Assembly (NCBI GenBank): GCA_003671275.1
Contig: QWPB01000061.1
Coordinates: forward strand, 1-64,000
Length of the DNA: 64,000 nt
Reading direction: 5' to 3'
Source of the DNA: Planctomycetota bacterium
GTDB lineage: Bacteria; Planctomycetota; Planctomycetia; Planctomycetales; Planctomycetaceae
This document shows, piece after piece, positions 3,231 to 14,894 of this stretch (positions are counted from its first letter, which is position 1; the number at the start of each line of letters is the position of its first letter). The notes beneath the pieces were generated by a model. That model had not been told where the DNA came from. It saw only the letters and a list, made by a program, of their open reading frames with translations, and made no database searches. The position numbers and the translations under genes are program-made.

Positions 3231-4499
3231 ATGTCCACCCGGCGTCCCAATCTCAAAACTGTCCTGCTGGTTCAGATGATTACCATGGGGGCGTTTGCCG
3301 CTGCATGGTTTACGGCCCAGCCATCCGCCAAGGCTCGCGTCGCGGAACAGCTGTGGTCCCGAGACGCCTTTGTCTCGGTGCCCGTGGATCGCAAGCAGCC
3401 GCTGCAAATCAGTCCGCTGTATGATCGCCCGGACTTGGTCAGCGAGGACGATCTGGCAGCTGTCCTGCGTCAGGTGCAGCCGAGATTTCCTCGCCAGTCG
3501 ATGAAACCAAACCATGTCGAGCACGCGCTGCGGACCTGGGGAGTGGGGGCCGAATTTCGTGATCCGACCGTTGTCTCCGGTCAGGAGATGGTCGAATTCC
3601 TGACCGACCATGAAAAGTTCCTGAACTCCTGGGGAGCCAAAACTCCTCCATTGCTGCAAGACCTGAGTACCGGAGTCAGCATTCGATTTGACCGCACCAA
3701 TGGGGCCAGTGTTCACCATGACCACTGGCTGGCCTGTCTGACGGAAGCGGGAATCGGTCTCAACACACCGGTCTATACCCCCGGGCGAAAGAACGCGACC
3801 ATCGCCATGGTCCTGGATCAGGCTCTGCGGGACTTTCGCCTGGATGAACGCGAGACCGAATGGACCGCACTGGCGTTCGCCTTCTGGATCGCACCGCAGA
3901 AAGAGTGGATCGGTGGGGATGGACGTGAATACTCCTTCGACCTGGTCTCCGAACGGTTGCGGCGGGGACAGAAAGAACTGGGCGTGTGCAGTGGGACGCA
4001 CCGCGTGTACTCCCTGATGGCGCTGGTTCGATTGGATGACGAGTACCACATCCTTTCACAGACTGAACGGCAGAATGCGTGGGGCTACCTGGAGTCGGTC
4101 CGCGATCGGATCACGGAATCTCAATTGCCCGACGGCCACTGGCCCAGCAACTGGCCCGATGGCAAATCCGCCGCCGAACGCCCCATCGTTAACGATTTGC
4201 GGCAGACTCTGATTGCCACGGGCCACCATATCGAATGGCTGTCGATCGCTCCGAAAGAACTGCATCCGCCCGAAGCAACGATCCGCCAGGGAATGAAGTG
4301 GATGATCGAGACCGTCAAGGCGATGCCTCAGCAGCAGGTGCTGGATAACTACACCTTTTGCAGCCATATCGGCAAGGCCGCTGCCATGTGGCGCAAGACC
4401 AGTCCGGAAGAATTCTGGGAAGCGTGGGAAGTGGACCACCCACCCGTCATCGCGCCGGTCACCACCGCACCGACTGCGACCTCGTCCGAAGTGCATTGA
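3231..4499 (+). CDS. Membrane-anchored protein with possible alpha/alpha-toroid fold, unknown function
   Basis: A 422-residue protein with one N-terminal hydrophobic stretch (VLLVQMITMGAFAAAWFTA, about residues 10-28) that should work as a signal anchor, leaving the bulk outside the cytoplasm. It is helical and contains SQLPDGHWPSNW at about residues 295-305, which fits the QW motif (Q-x3-G-x-W) of squalene-cyclase/prenyltransferase-like toroids. CSGTHRVYSLMALVRLDDEY and FCSHIGKAAAMWR would be further helix pairs. No catalytic DxDD motif is visible, so a cyclase reaction is not claimed. ATG 3231 was chosen because it places the hydrophobic segment at the N-terminus; the longer frame from 3141 overlaps the previous gene. 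It lies 61 bp after the polytopic membrane protein and 91 bp before the aminotransferase, so the three could form one unit. Confidence 0.7.
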   Translation: MSTRRPNLKTVLLVQMITMGAFAAAWFTAQPSAKARVAEQLWSRDAFVSVPVDRKQPLQISPLYDRPDLVSEDDLAAVLRQVQPRFPRQSMKPNHVEHALRTWGVGAEFRDPTVVSGQEMVEFLTDHEKFLNSWGAKTPPLLQDLSTGVSIRFDRTNGASVHHDHWLACLTEAGIGLNTPVYTPGRKNATIAMVLDQALRDFRLDERETEWTALAFAFWIAPQKEWIGGDGREYSFDLVSERLRRGQKELGVCSGTHRVYSLMALVRLDDEYHILSQTERQNAWGYLESVRDRITESQLPDGHWPSNWPDGKSAAERPIVNDLRQTLIATGHHIEWLSIAPKELHPPEATIRQGMKWMIETVKAMPQQQVLDNYTFCSHIGKAAAMWRKTSPEEFWEAWEVDHPPVIAPVTTAPTATSSEVH

Positions 4500-10119: not shown

Positions 10120-13100
10120 TCAGCCCAAGCCATGCCGCCGCAGGCGACTGAAGAATGTACTGCGGGGAATCCCCATCAGGCGGGCGGCTTCGGCCTTGTT
10201 GCCGCCGCAGCGTTCCAGCGCCGCGATCAACTGCTGTTTCTCGTCCGCCGACCCGATGACGACCCGTTCCACCGCTGCGAAATTCGACGATGACCGCCGT
10301 GGGATCTCATGCCCCGGACGCGGTGAGGCCACTCCAAAGGTGGCCCGTGCGACCGCCAGTGGAAGCTCCGCCACGGTAATTTGGCCCCCTTCGCTCATCA
10401 CAACCGACCGCTCGATCACGTTATGCAGCTCGCGAATATTCCCCGGCCACGAGTACGCGGTCAGCGCCTCGATGGCTGCTTCGTCGAAGTAGCCAATCGG
10501 ACGCCCTGACTTTTGAGCCGACTGAGCCAGAAAGTGCATCGCCAGTTCGAGCAGGTCTTCCTTGCGTTCCCGCAGTGGCGGCAGCGTCACGCTGATCACA
10601 TTTAAGCGGTAGTACAAGTCTTCACGGAACTTGCCCTCGGCAATCAACCGTTCCAAATTCTGGTGCGTAGCAGCGATCACCCGCACATCGGCCTCGACGG
10701 GAACCGAACTTCCCACCGGTTCAAAGGTCCGCTCCTGCAAAACCCGCAGCAGTTTGATCTGCACATCGAGCGAGATGTCGCCGATTTCATCCAGGAACAG
10801 CGTCCCCCCATGGGCCATCGCGAACCGCCCCGGCTTGTCCTCGCGGGCGTCAGTAAAGGCTCCCTTCACATGCCCGAACAGTTCGCTTTCGAGCAGTTGA
10901 GGAGACAACGCGGCGCAGTGGACTGCCACCAGCGGCCCAGCCTTGCGGGGGCTGTTCTCGTGGATCGTCCGGGCCAGCAGTTCCTTACCCGTCCCGCTTT
11001 CCCCACGGACCAGCACACTGGCTTCGCTGGCGGCAACCTTCCGCACGGTTTCGAGAACCTGCGTGATGGCCGGTCCGTTTCCCTTGATTGTCGATCGCTG
11101 CAACTCGCCTGCCACCGCAAGGGGGCGTGGCGAGCTGTTTACGCTGTTCACGATTCCCTGCAACATCGTGATTCGGCGTTCCTGATCGACGAGCTTGTCG
11201 GTCTTGGTCTGCAAGTCTTCATTGAGCCGGGAAATTTCTTCGTGTACTTTGGCGCAGTGCAGAGCGACACCCGTGATCCGGCCCATTGCGGTCAGGAATG
11301 CCACGTCTTCGGCGGTGAACGCCGCGCCGCTTGGTTTTCGCCCCAGGGCCACGAAGCCCGCCAGTTCGCCATCCACTTCCAGCCCGGTAATCAGTTCCGC
11401 GTTCATCGCCCGCACCAGAACCTGATCGCCGGAATCCGCACTGGGAACCCGTTGAATCGAATTCCCCGGTCCCAGCAGCTTCAGTTGTTCCTCACTGCCG
11501 GGAAGTGTGGCGGGGGCCTCGGGCCAACCGACCGCCGATGCCAGCTTGAACCGCGAATGTTCCGGAACCCATAAGTACAGCGCCGCCTGCTCCACTCGCA
11601 GGGCTTCACAACAAGACCCCAGCAGATTCCCCGCGACCGCATCCCGTCCCCACAAGTTCGATACCGCTCGGTTCATCCGCAACAGGGCTCGATCCAGCTG
11701 GTACTTCTCGCGAAAAAATTCACGGTCGATCGACCGCTGCATCCGGTCTTTGGACCACAGCAGGCCAAACACAACCAGCGTCAGCACGATGACCATCGGA
11801 ACCGGTTGGCCAAACAGCGATGCGTTCTGGCTATGCAGCGCCACGCTGCCCACGCCAATGGCGGCACTGAACAGGAACCCCAGCCCACCACTCAGGACGA
11901 AATACCACATCCCGCGGCTGAGTACCTGGTCAATCAGCAGCAACTTGAACCGCGCGATGCCGACGGCGTACGCCACCATGAACAGCAGACTCGCGATGAA
12001 CATCGGAATCTGAGATGCCCCGAGTGCGAACTGCTGAGGGCGAAACAATGCCAGATAAAGCGCATAGCCCACCGGGATGGATGCCGCCATTCCGGCCCAC
12101 AGAATCGACTGCACCTGGCGTCGCTGGACCAGATCGCGAACCCGTACCAGGCTCTCGGCCATCGCCGCCAGGCTCGCTCCAAAATACAGGAGCGAGACGC
12201 TCAGGTAGGCCAGAATGGACCCCTGTAGCAGGTTCATCAGGACGATGGCCCCTCGAGCGATCGTTCGCGTCATCCACAAACCAAACGGACCTTCTCCCCA
12301 CGAACCCGACAGCCACGAACCGGCGACGGCCACCGCCACGGTCGCCAGCGACATGATCACGGGCCCCGCGTAGATCAATCCCAGAATGGTATGGGGCCGC
12401 TGCAGCAGCGCGGGCTTCGTCGTCGGGTAAACCAGAAAGAAGTGCAGCAATACCGCCGGAAGCAGAATCCCCGCCACGGCAAATGGCAGGATCAATGCCA
12501 GCCGACCGGAAATCACCCACCAGTGATCCCCGCCAACAAACGCGATCAGCGTCAGTCCGCTGAGGATGCAGAATAGCTTGAGTGACCGGTCAAACGGTCG
12601 CTGCCATGCCGCAATCCCGCTCACCAGTGTGATCCCGGTTTGCAGGATGAACCAGAAAAGAGTAATCCCGATCCGCAGGGCGGATTGCCGCTCGAGCTGC
12701 AACCAGCCTGTCAGGATGGAATCGGCTCCGGGGCGGCGGAATCGGACCTTCACATAGCGCAGCTGATCGGGGTACTCCACCAGGGTGAGCTCGGAGGTGG
12801 CTCCCAGATCTTTCGGGTTGGCTTCGGCGGGCAGTGCCCCCCCGGAATCAATGCGGGCGTACCGGAGAGCGGCGTGGGCCCAGGCGAAATCGACGAATGA
12901 GCGGACGGGACGTCCGTGGAACTCAACCAGAATGTCCCCGGCTTTGGGCAGGGTGACGAGTCCGTTTTTCGGGCCAACGCGGATCTCAACCCCACTGGTA
13001 TCCACATCATTCGACAGCAAGCATCGGAGCCCGGCATCGGGGCTGGTGGCGACATACCACAAGACCACAACGCCGTAGAGCAGCGCAGTCGCAGTGAAGA

Positions 13101-13152
13101 TGGCGAGAGTAGAGGAGGAGGATCGCACTGAAATCACTAAACAGGAGAACAC
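10120..13152 (-). CDS. Membrane-anchored sigma-54-dependent transcriptional activator (PDZ-like, multi-TM, GAF, AAA+, Fis HTH)
   Basis: A 1010-residue regulator with an unusual layout. TM1 is at about 16-36. A PDZ-like segment follows at about 50-130 (GLVTLPKAGDILVEFHGRPV). A block of about eight to ten TM helices spans 155-440, then a GAF domain at about 500-650, a short coiled coil, an AAA+ domain at about 690-910, and a Fis-type helix-turn-helix at the end (GNKAEAARLMGIPRSTFFSRL). Walker A is GESGTGKE (about residue 715) and Walker B is GGTLFLDEIGD. The sigma-54-contact loop reads GAFTDA instead of GAFTGA. R-fingers and NIRELHNVIERSV complete the core. Activators of this class hydrolyse ATP to remodel sigma-54 holoenzyme; here the sensor should be in the membrane. 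The gene faces a -24/-12 promoter at 13292. The ligand is unknown. Confidence 0.9.
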   Translation of the reverse strand: MFSCLVISVRSSSSTLAIFTATALLYGVVVLWYVATSPDAGLRCLLSNDVDTSGVEIRVGPKNGLVTLPKAGDILVEFHGRPVRSFVDFAWAHAALRYARIDSGGALPAEANPKDLGATSELTLVEYPDQLRYVKVRFRRPGADSILTGWLQLERQSALRIGITLFWFILQTGITLVSGIAAWQRPFDRSLKLFCILSGLTLIAFVGGDHWWVISGRLALILPFAVAGILLPAVLLHFFLVYPTTKPALLQRPHTILGLIYAGPVIMSLATVAVAVAGSWLSGSWGEGPFGLWMTRTIARGAIVLMNLLQGSILAYLSVSLLYFGASLAAMAESLVRVRDLVQRRQVQSILWAGMAASIPVGYALYLALFRPQQFALGASQIPMFIASLLFMVAYAVGIARFKLLLIDQVLSRGMWYFVLSGGLGFLFSAAIGVGSVALHSQNASLFGQPVPMVIVLTLVVFGLLWSKDRMQRSIDREFFREKYQLDRALLRMNRAVSNLWGRDAVAGNLLGSCCEALRVEQAALYLWVPEHSRFKLASAVGWPEAPATLPGSEEQLKLLGPGNSIQRVPSADSGDQVLVRAMNAELITGLEVDGELAGFVALGRKPSGAAFTAEDVAFLTAMGRITGVALHCAKVHEEISRLNEDLQTKTDKLVDQERRITMLQGIVNSVNSSPRPLAVAGELQRSTIKGNGPAITQVLETVRKVAASEASVLVRGESGTGKELLARTIHENSPRKAGPLVAVHCAALSPQLLESELFGHVKGAFTDAREDKPGRFAMAHGGTLFLDEIGDISLDVQIKLLRVLQERTFEPVGSSVPVEADVRVIAATHQNLERLIAEGKFREDLYYRLNVISVTLPPLRERKEDLLELAMHFLAQSAQKSGRPIGYFDEAAIEALTAYSWPGNIRELHNVIERSVVMSEGGQITVAELPLAVARATFGVASPRPGHEIPRRSSSNFAAVERVVIGSADEKQQLIAALERCGGNKAEAARLMGIPRSTFFSRLRRHGLG

Positions 13153-13291
13153 TGTTTCCAGCGCCGAACACTTCAGTCACGCTACCGCTTCAGCGCCGAT
13201 TCGTCAATCACGAACTTTCATCGTCAGTCGAAAAATTGGAAATACCAAGGAAAACAGAGTGTATGGCCAGCGCCGAAAAAAATAAAACCAT

Positions 13292-13308
13292 TTGGCACAC
13301 AGCATGCA
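13292..13308 (+). promoter_or_regulatory. Predicted sigma-54 (-24/-12) promoter
   Basis: TTGGCACACAGCATGCA matches the consensus TTGGCAC-N5-TTGCA with one mismatch (ATGCA for TTGCA). GG at 13294-13295 and GC at 13306-13307 are separated by exactly 10 bp, as sigma-54 requires. The predicted transcription start is near 13319. It lies 140 bp upstream of the divergent sigma-54 activator gene and points the other way, towards a putative short transcript and proA. The surrounding 30 bp are AT-rich for this genome. This is a pattern match, not proof of activity. Confidence 0.65.
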
Positions 13309-13318
13309 ATTCATTTTT

Positions 13319-13470
13319 GATGTCTGACCCCTGACCCCTCGAAGAGATGTGCCTCGCCTGACCCAGCCAGTAGCCGTCACTGTAAAGCAGCCTGACCCAA
13401 ATCTGCGACAACAATGACTCCCAAACGGCCTGCAGGGTAGTGGCATCGCTCTTCAGGGGTTTTTTATTTT
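13319..13470 (+). ncRNA. Candidate sigma-54-driven small RNA with four CTGACCC repeats
   Basis: From the predicted start at 13319 to the T-run at 13460-13470 is about 150 nt. Only very short open frames occur in it (ATG 13320 gives four codons before a stop). CTGACCC occurs four times, at 13324-13330, 13331-13337, 13358-13364 and 13392-13398, separated by non-repeated sequence. A hairpin plus T-run closes the segment. Repeated short C-rich motifs are typical of small RNAs that pair with several mRNAs, but the motif could equally be a DNA-binding site for the neighbouring activator, or the region may simply be the proA leader. No known RNA family was recognised. Confidence 0.35.
13429..13470 (+). 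terminator. Intrinsic-terminator-like hairpin with T-run
   Basis: CCTGCAG (13429-13435) pairs with CTTCAGG (13451-13457) with one internal mismatch and a 15 nt loop. GG, TTTTTT (13460-13465) and a further ATTTT follow. The stem is modest but the T-run is the strongest in the region. If it works, it separates the sigma-54 transcript from proA. Confidence 0.45.
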
Positions 13471-13520
13471 CCGGTCGTCCCCCTGATTCATTCACACACA
13501 TCGATAAGCACGGAGGCAGT

Positions 13521-13556
13521 CCTCTGGGCGAGAGGACGGAATCTCTTGCCCAGAGG
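13521..13556 (+). promoter_or_regulatory. Long hairpin in the proA leader
   Basis: CCTCTGGGC (13521-13529) is perfectly complementary to GCCCAGAGG (13548-13556). The helix continues inward through a G-T wobble and AGAG/CTCT, giving a 14-pair stem with an 8 nt loop. It lies 78 bp before the proA ATG and has no T-run. It could be an mRNA-stabilising or attenuating structure, or an intergenic repeat. Together with the preceding two entries it describes the 482 bp spacer 13153-13634, in which I see no protein gene. Confidence 0.5.
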
Positions 13557-13634
13557 ATCCTTTCGTTCCATATGCCAGATTTCTGGGGACCGAATCGCGT
13601 TGACATCAACGTCCGGGCTTCGAATACTCTGTCC

Positions 13635-14894
13635 ATGGACACTCTCACTGAATACACCACCCGCGTGGCCCGGCAAGCTCGTCAGGCCAGTCGCCAGCTG
13701 GCACTGACCTCAGAAATCCAGCGAAACCAATGGCTGCACGCCGCTGCGAATGGACTGCGAGCCGCCACCGCGACCCTGATCACGGAGAATGCCCGTGACT
13801 TGGAGGCCGCGCCGGGATATGGACTGAACGCTGCGGCGATCGACCGTTTGAGGCTGACTGAAGCCCGCATTCGTGATCTGGCCTCTGCCCTGGAAGAAGT
13901 GGCCACCCTGCCGGACCCGCTGGCCGGAGAGATCGATCGCAAGGTTCGCCCGAATGGACTGGTCGTTTCACGAGTTCGTGTGCCGCTCGGGGTTGTCTTC
14001 TTTATCTATGAATCGCGGCCCAATGTGACAGCCGACGCTGCGGCGCTGTGCGTCAAAAGCGGAAACGCCGTGATTCTGCGGGGTGGAAAGGAAGCCCTGC
14101 ACAGCAACCTGGCGATTCACCGCGTTCTCTCCGACACCCTGGAGGCGTGTGGCCTGCCACGACATGCTGTTCAGCTGGTTGAGACAACCGACCGGGCCGC
14201 CGTCGGAGAGTTTTTGAAGTTGCGCACACTGATTGACGTGACGATCCCGCGCGGCGGCAAGGATCTGATCGAGCGAGTGACTCGTGAAGCCACAATGCCG
14301 GTCATTAAGCACTTCGACGGGATCTGCCATGTTTACGTCGATGCCGCGGCGAACCTGGAGAAGGCTGCGAGCATCCTGATTAACTCCAAGTGTCAGCGTC
14401 CGGGAGTCTGTAATGCGGCGGAAACGCTGTTGGTCCATGCATCCGTCGTCGACAAATTCCTTCCACTGGTCGGCCCGGAGCTCGTACAGCGTGGCGTTGA
14501 GGTCCGGGGAGATGCCCGCATTCGGGAATACTGGCCCAATGCCAAATTGGCCACCGAGCAGGACTACCGCACCGAGTATCTCGATCTGATCCTGTCGGCC
14601 CGCGTCGTCGACTCCTTGGCAGAGGCCATCGACCACATTGATACCTACAGCTCGCACCACACCGAGACCATTGTCACCGAGGACACCACCGCCGCCCGGC
14701 AATTCACCGCTGCGGTCGACTCGTCTGCGGTAATGGTCAACGCCAGTACCAGGTTCAACGATGGTGGCGAGCTGGGGCTGGGAGCGGAGATTGGAATCAG
14801 CACCGACAAATTCCACGCCCGCGGCCCGTGCGGCCTGGTGGAACTGACCAGCTATAAATATGTCGTGATCGGCACCGGCCAGATCCGAGGATAA
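13635..14894 (+). CDS. proA: Gamma-glutamyl phosphate reductase ProA
   Basis: Reduces gamma-glutamyl phosphate with NADPH to glutamate semialdehyde in proline synthesis. The 419 residues match the usual length of about 417. Visible blocks are [29 protein letters not shown], the conserved [20 protein letters not shown], the catalytic cysteine in [17 protein letters not shown], and [18 protein letters not shown] near the end. ATG 13635 was chosen because family conservation begins there; the frame upstream to 13440 lacks homology-like sequence and includes the leader hairpin. proB is not nearby. The esterase gene follows after 26 bp, so the two are probably one operon. The gene may be read from the sigma-54 promoter at 13292 by read-through, or from its own promoter. 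Confidence 0.96.

Follow-up and report, generated by a model that had tools for sequence, protein, structure and literature searches.

The CsrB/RsmZ RNAs are structured RNAs that display one short single-stranded motif several times over, GGA being what CsrA binds, and in Enterobacteriaceae the sigma-54-controlled RNA GlmY is found near the GlrR activator operon. The RapZ-GlmZ system uses GlmY as a decoy RNA (PMC7073468). In the LuxO-Qrr1 system of Vibrionaceae, the small RNA lies directly upstream of the gene for the sigma-54 activator and is read in the opposite direction, with the activator sites and the -24/-12 element placed between the two (PMC8043402). In the CbrAB-CrcZ/CrcY system of Pseudomonas, the Crc protein is sequestered by a small RNA, the expression of which is driven by a sigma-54 activator (PMC6296734).

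The locus described here is found in a window of 64,000 nt, by which we mean the whole stretch of Planctomycetota DNA that was analyzed (contig QWPB01000061.1). It resembles LuxO-Qrr1 in that the activator-RNA unit of Planctomycetaceae has the same genetic layout, and the comparisons presented below indicate that it very probably contains a real sigma-54-dependent RNA that is controlled by the adjacent activator. The best explanation of the locus as a whole is a sensor-activator-RNA unit with a trans-acting RNA, for which we estimate a probability of about 0.72. The features of the unit, as predicted, are the following.

10120-13152, minus strand: membrane-integral sigma-54 activator of 1010 aa (from Pfam, hydropathy, AF2 models, and Foldseek)
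13159-13167, plus strand: putative enhancer element 1, CAGCGCCGA (a repeat, with the motif TC[A/G]GCGCCGA in orthologous intergenic regions)
13191-13199, plus strand: putative enhancer element 2, CAGCGCCGA (on the same basis; forms a close pair with element 1)
13268-13276, plus strand: enhancer-like element 3, CAGCGCCGA, directly upstream of the promoter (a repeat that has the family motif)
13292-13308, plus strand: sigma-54 promoter TTGGCAC-ACAGC-ATGCA, of conserved direction, with +1 predicted at 13319
13319-13467, plus strand: predicted small RNA of about 150 nt (from the match to covariance model R1)
13324-13337, plus strand: 5′ tail with two CTGACCC copies, the counterpart of the ACCCAGCC tail of the family
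13336-13346, plus strand: 5′ arm of stem P1, CCCTCGAAGAG (from P1 covariation in homologues)
13358-13364, plus strand: third CTGACCC copy, within the rod and specific to the variant of the window's species
13387-13406, plus strand: P2 hairpin GCAG-CCTGACCCAAAT-CTGC, whose loop carries the fourth CTGACCC copy and which is the most conserved part of the family
13449-13465, plus strand: 3′ arm of P1, CTCTTCAGGGG, with a T-run, the predicted terminator of the RNA

The promoter sequence TTGGCACACAGCATGCA has exact GG-N10-GC spacing and matches 11 of 12 consensus positions, and in this the preliminary description of the locus, which had reported TTGGCAC-N5-ATGCA with that spacing and a single mismatch, was accurate. 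Comparably good sigma-54 matches are no rarity over 64 kb, with four found in the window against 2.1 expected, so that the window alone cannot exclude chance. Orthologues of the activator were found in 76 of 99 relatives, and upstream regions were read for 53 orthologues from Planctomycetaceae and 17 from other families. Within the 560 nt upstream of the activator, and at a cut-off of at least 9 of 12 consensus positions, a site directed away from the activator is present in 45 of the 50 family loci that could be assessed, compared with 3.5 in dinucleotide shuffles and nine on the opposite strand, and when at least 10 of 12 positions are required the corresponding numbers are 32, 0.6, and one. 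The -24/-12 element is thus conserved in Planctomycetaceae that retain the activator, a point on which the same description had made its proposal depend. The gene for sigma-54 itself, rpoN, was found in each of the 16 genomes examined for it.

Of the 8-mers found between activator and promoter, the most frequent all belong to a palindromic sequence, TC(A/G)GCGCCGA. Its GCGCCGA portion occurs in 49 of 50 loci, with about four copies in each and often at a distance of 90-200 nt on the upstream side of the promoter, and the TCRGCGCCGA clusters are probably the binding sites of the activator. Elements 1 and 2 are the sole direct pair of the form RGCGCCGA-N8..38-RGCGCCGA in the window's genome, and the same pair occurs once each in two congeners, while high-GC genomes contain many pairs by chance. 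When 30 sigma-54-like sites were read in the window's genome, the RNA promoter was the only one with several such elements upstream. A natural separation test is provided by genome G022, in which the RNA (C267:19118-19261, L102) and the activator (C144:23686-26787, L065) are on different contigs: the RNA has kept its enhancer elements along with a sigma-54 site (TTGGTACGATGAATGCG), and none are found upstream of the activator, which favors the RNA as the target.

The predicted RNA was matched by R1, from whose training the window sequence had been left out, at 13336-13467 with 32.1 bits and an E-value of 9.7e-5 for the whole genome, and this is the sole match in the genome. Its long stem pairs 13336-13346 with 13449-13459, is followed by TTTTTTATTTT, and encloses about 100 nt, which is nearly the whole RNA. 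The fold is moderately better than that of shuffled sequences (z -2.1). The RNA is a derived member of its family, and the variant found in the window's genus, which has four copies of the repeat, is derived as well. CTGACCC is at 13324, 13331, 13358, and 13392, and 4 of the 12 plus-strand copies in the window fall inside 75 nt. The four copies within about 150 nt had already been pointed out in the preliminary description and are indeed there, though they are better read as displayed ACCCA/GACCC motifs, which usually number two or three. Its statement that the RNA has no useful ORF also holds, the sole ORF that starts with ATG and also ends within the RNA having 8 codons. The hairpin with a T-run that it proposed needs revision, since the stem closed by the T-run is real but is the base of the long stem and not a local hairpin, which is also why a simple terminator scan missed it.

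A common plan can be recognized in nearly every readable locus of the family, consisting of a 5′ tail that ends in (A)CCCAGCC, the long stem P1, which starts with CCCU and ends with AGGG followed by a U-run, and the internal hairpin P2, typically CUGAUUGCAG-CCUGACCCACU-CUGCAAUCAG, which displays GACCCA. Covariation was counted on the P1-anchored alignment A2 of 25 sequences, where 85% of the P1 and P2 cells are paired and 15 of 17 pairs have double changes. The two stems contain 62 compensatory cells compared with 22 in shuffles, with a signal that collapses when the partner is slid; the boundaries of P1 were picked by searching for pairing, so that its values are biased upward, and a slide of one column drops pairing to about 50%. 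All 17 pairs have double changes in 52 distinct model-aligned sequences, an alignment of a kind that leans toward structure. Over 46 homologous RNAs, fold stability relative to shuffles has a mean z of -4.8, and the ACCCA/GACCC motif is present in 108 copies against 27 in shuffles, or two to four per RNA, with a mean unpaired probability of 0.74 against 0.38. Rfam contains no family of this kind, with none near threshold for the RNAs of the window, L034, or L047 and no match to the Qrr family. A CsrA decoy was likewise rejected, the RNAs having too few GGA triplets (1.5 per RNA on average, and 0.6 for ANGGA/AGGA). No report of the RNA was found in the literature searched, although this does not prove that there is none, and on sequence grounds we consider it to be a previously uncatalogued folded RNA that is specific to Planctomycetaceae.

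R1 was built without the promoter, the tail, or the window's own sequence. At E ≤ 0.01 the model finds the RNA in 46 of the 53 family activator loci, of which 21 had not been used for training, and the 17 activator loci from other families give no match. CCCAGC, the tail sequence that the model does not cover, occurs in 16 of the 21 non-training members and in all 21 if near variants are counted. There is one R1 match per whole genome, and it adjoins the activator wherever both positions are known, G022 excepted. Across 298 genomes of the class, matches occur in 53 Planctomycetaceae, with three short and weak ones in other families, and across 392 genomes of the phylum nothing was found outside Planctomycetaceae at E ≤ 1e-4. 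Under the strict filters of the 298-genome survey, 20 sampled genomes of the family are without a match; G021 is without a convincing RNA, and G009 and G026 score weakly. The covariance search in relatives that the preliminary description had suggested has thus found the promoter, the C-rich motif, and the closing stem to be conserved opposite the activator in Planctomycetaceae, and in the sequences compared the same is true of the enhancer cluster, the RNA structure, the single copy, and the linkage to the activator. In G033 two tandem copies of the RNA stand behind one sigma-54 site (L033:3594-3713 and 3729-3867).

The activator was assigned by Pfam to PF00158 (E 1e-69) and HTH_8 (1e-10), with a weak GAF_3 match. 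Its domain order within one polypeptide is a TM helix, an extracytoplasmic domain of ~115 residues, 8-9 more TM helices (about 9-10 in total by hydropathy), a GAF domain, an AAA+ domain, and a Fis-type HTH. The extracytoplasmic domain comprises residues 37-156 (12685-13044 of the window, minus strand) and has a pLDDT of 90 in the AF2 model, and its best Foldseek matches are the PDZ domains of HtrA, CtpA/CtpB, DegS, DegP, and RseP, at E-values of 0.026-0.2. By sequence, PDZ_6 is matched weakly, in 3 of 30 members with a best E-value of 0.007, and the PDZ-like nature of the modeled domain is probable but not proven. A fold search with the full membrane part returned only generic 7-TM matches. 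The likeness to the PDZ domains of HtrA, DegS, and RseP suggests an input of the envelope-stress type, and the envelope signal is a guess in that it is deduced from the type of domain. The earlier proposal of a self-contained unit composed of membrane sensor, activator, and RNA effector is supported, except that sensor and activator are not separate but form one polypeptide.

Several other explanations of the conserved sequence have to be considered. In the window, proA follows the RNA on the same strand at a distance of about 170 nt, as would be expected if the RNA served the downstream gene as a leader or attenuator, but across the 46 loci the downstream gene varies (there are one cluster of seven and one congener pair, and the rest are unrelated), and 28 of the 46 have their longest downstream ORF on the opposite strand. 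The RNA also has its own closing stem and T-run, and a separate sigma-70-like site is present ahead of proA at 13600-13628. Since the downstream genes differ among loci, we conclude that the RNA is not a proA leader, and a leader role of any kind has a very small chance of being correct. The sigma-70-like site, TTGACA-17-AATACT, is separated by just a few bases from the start codon of proA (ATG at 13635), and proA may be transcribed from a promoter of its own and have almost no leader. A 17-pair stem at 13519-13558, GTCCTCTGGGC...GCCCAGAGGAT, in the interval that separates the RNA from proA, may be a terminator or a leader element of proA. The position of the enhancer sites between both genes means that they could also act on expression of the activator, in which case the conserved elements would serve its autoregulation and the structured sequence would be a terminator or insulator. 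The sigma-54 site is directed away from the activator, however, and in G022 the promoter and enhancers stay with the RNA rather than with the activator, while the conserved loop and tail far exceed the needs of a terminator; we give this explanation a small chance, slightly above that of a leader. The length of the RNA would permit a small protein of up to about 45 codons, but an ORF of at least 15 codons that starts with ATG (GTG and TTG starts were not counted) is found in only 4 of the 46 homologues, and the four sequences are unrelated, making a coding function the least probable of the alternatives considered here. The lack of a conserved ORF, taken with the structure and the T-run, speaks for a discrete noncoding transcript that ends at an intrinsic terminator.

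With regard to its mode of action, the RNA is likely to act in trans. Loops that are conserved, unpaired, and rich in C are typical of antisense seeds, and the P2 loop and 5′ tail resemble them, suggesting the possibility that the RNA pairs, independently of Hfq, with G-rich stretches of mRNA (UGGGU, GGGUCAGG). Qrr1, a known adjacent sigma-54 RNA, acts on target mRNAs (PMC8043402). Exact 11-nt complements of the P2 loop are not enriched, however, with 52 in 14 genomes compared with 77 in a reversed control, and about a quarter of the 52 are the RNA gene itself. The 30 sites that were retrieved contain no recurrent gene, the search being one for exact 11-nt matches; imperfect or short-seed pairing may still occur. 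Furthermore, Hfq (PF17209) was found in none of 16 Planctomycetia genomes, with the control genomes positive, and two to four copies of one motif in each RNA look more like a sponge. It is the repeated, unpaired, and nearly identical motifs, together with the lack of Hfq and of complement enrichment or recurrence, that lead us to favor a decoy, in which the RNA titrates an RNA-binding protein that recognizes the repeated motif. We propose the decoy tentatively, at somewhat less than even odds, and consider antisense pairing possible but rather unlikely; modes other than these two share the remaining probability.

We infer that an envelope or periplasmic signal causes the RNA to be made, with the activator binding its sites and firing the promoter, and that the RNA acts in trans, most probably by protein titration. 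The cue would be read by the PDZ-like domain of the activator, which would bind the palindromic TCRGCGCCGA cluster and switch on sigma-54 RNA polymerase at the divergent promoter. The product would be a rod-shaped, intrinsically terminated regulatory RNA of ~150 nt that presents at least two single-stranded ACCCA/GACCC motifs, in the 5′ tail and the P2 loop, and that may thereby sequester a protein binding the repeated motif. In its most specific form, the proposal is of a new decoy RNA family, confined to Planctomycetaceae and operating without a recognizable Hfq, that titrates a protein binding the ACCCA/GACCC loop, where a PDZ-containing, envelope-sensing membrane protein activates sigma-54 directly and has the RNA as its only target; this complete version is doubtful, though conceivable.

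Activator orthologues from other families (L071-L090) face a gene for an alpha/beta-hydrolase (PF00561) instead of the RNA, and of these hydrolase-facing loci several have a sigma-54-like site and some have the same enhancer elements (TCGGCGC). The RNA may have replaced or displaced the hydrolase output in Planctomycetaceae, and a switch between protein and RNA output may be traceable, in either direction, between families. In nearly all of the Planctomycetaceae examined, the activator and the RNA look like a compact, lineage-specific signaling switch. There are few descriptions of post-transcriptional regulation in Planctomycetota, and the locus provides a defined and conserved RNA with its promoter, a probable enhancer code, and a regulator, in a single copy per genome. 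Because the unit is defined and present once, its signal and its partner could both come to light from a single deletion and a single pull-down in a member of the family that can be cultured.

The known systems each share some part of this arrangement. LuxO is a soluble response regulator that is phosphorylated (LuxO-P), whereas the activator in Planctomycetaceae is a one-piece membrane protein without a Pfam receiver domain, and Qrr is present in several copies in some vibrios, whereas the RNA of Planctomycetaceae is present in one, in genomes where no Hfq was found, and is unrelated to Qrr in sequence. For a decoy that repeats its motif, CrcZ is the nearest model, but its motif and partner are different, and CbrB is a two-component regulator with at least 61 other target genes, while the enhancer pair of the RNA occurs nowhere else in the window's genome. 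GlrR is a soluble two-component regulator, and GlmY is a different RNA from a phylogenetically remote group. The CsrB/RsmZ RNAs are similar in displaying a repeated motif, although the conserved motif of the Planctomycetaceae RNA is ACCCA/GACCC. Compared with luxO-qrr1, CbrB-CrcZ, and GlmY, then, the unit differs in its RNA, in its phylum, in the lack of Hfq, and in having a one-piece membrane activator, and the layout known from LuxO-Qrr1 is combined here with an RNA that is unrelated and an activator that belongs to another class.
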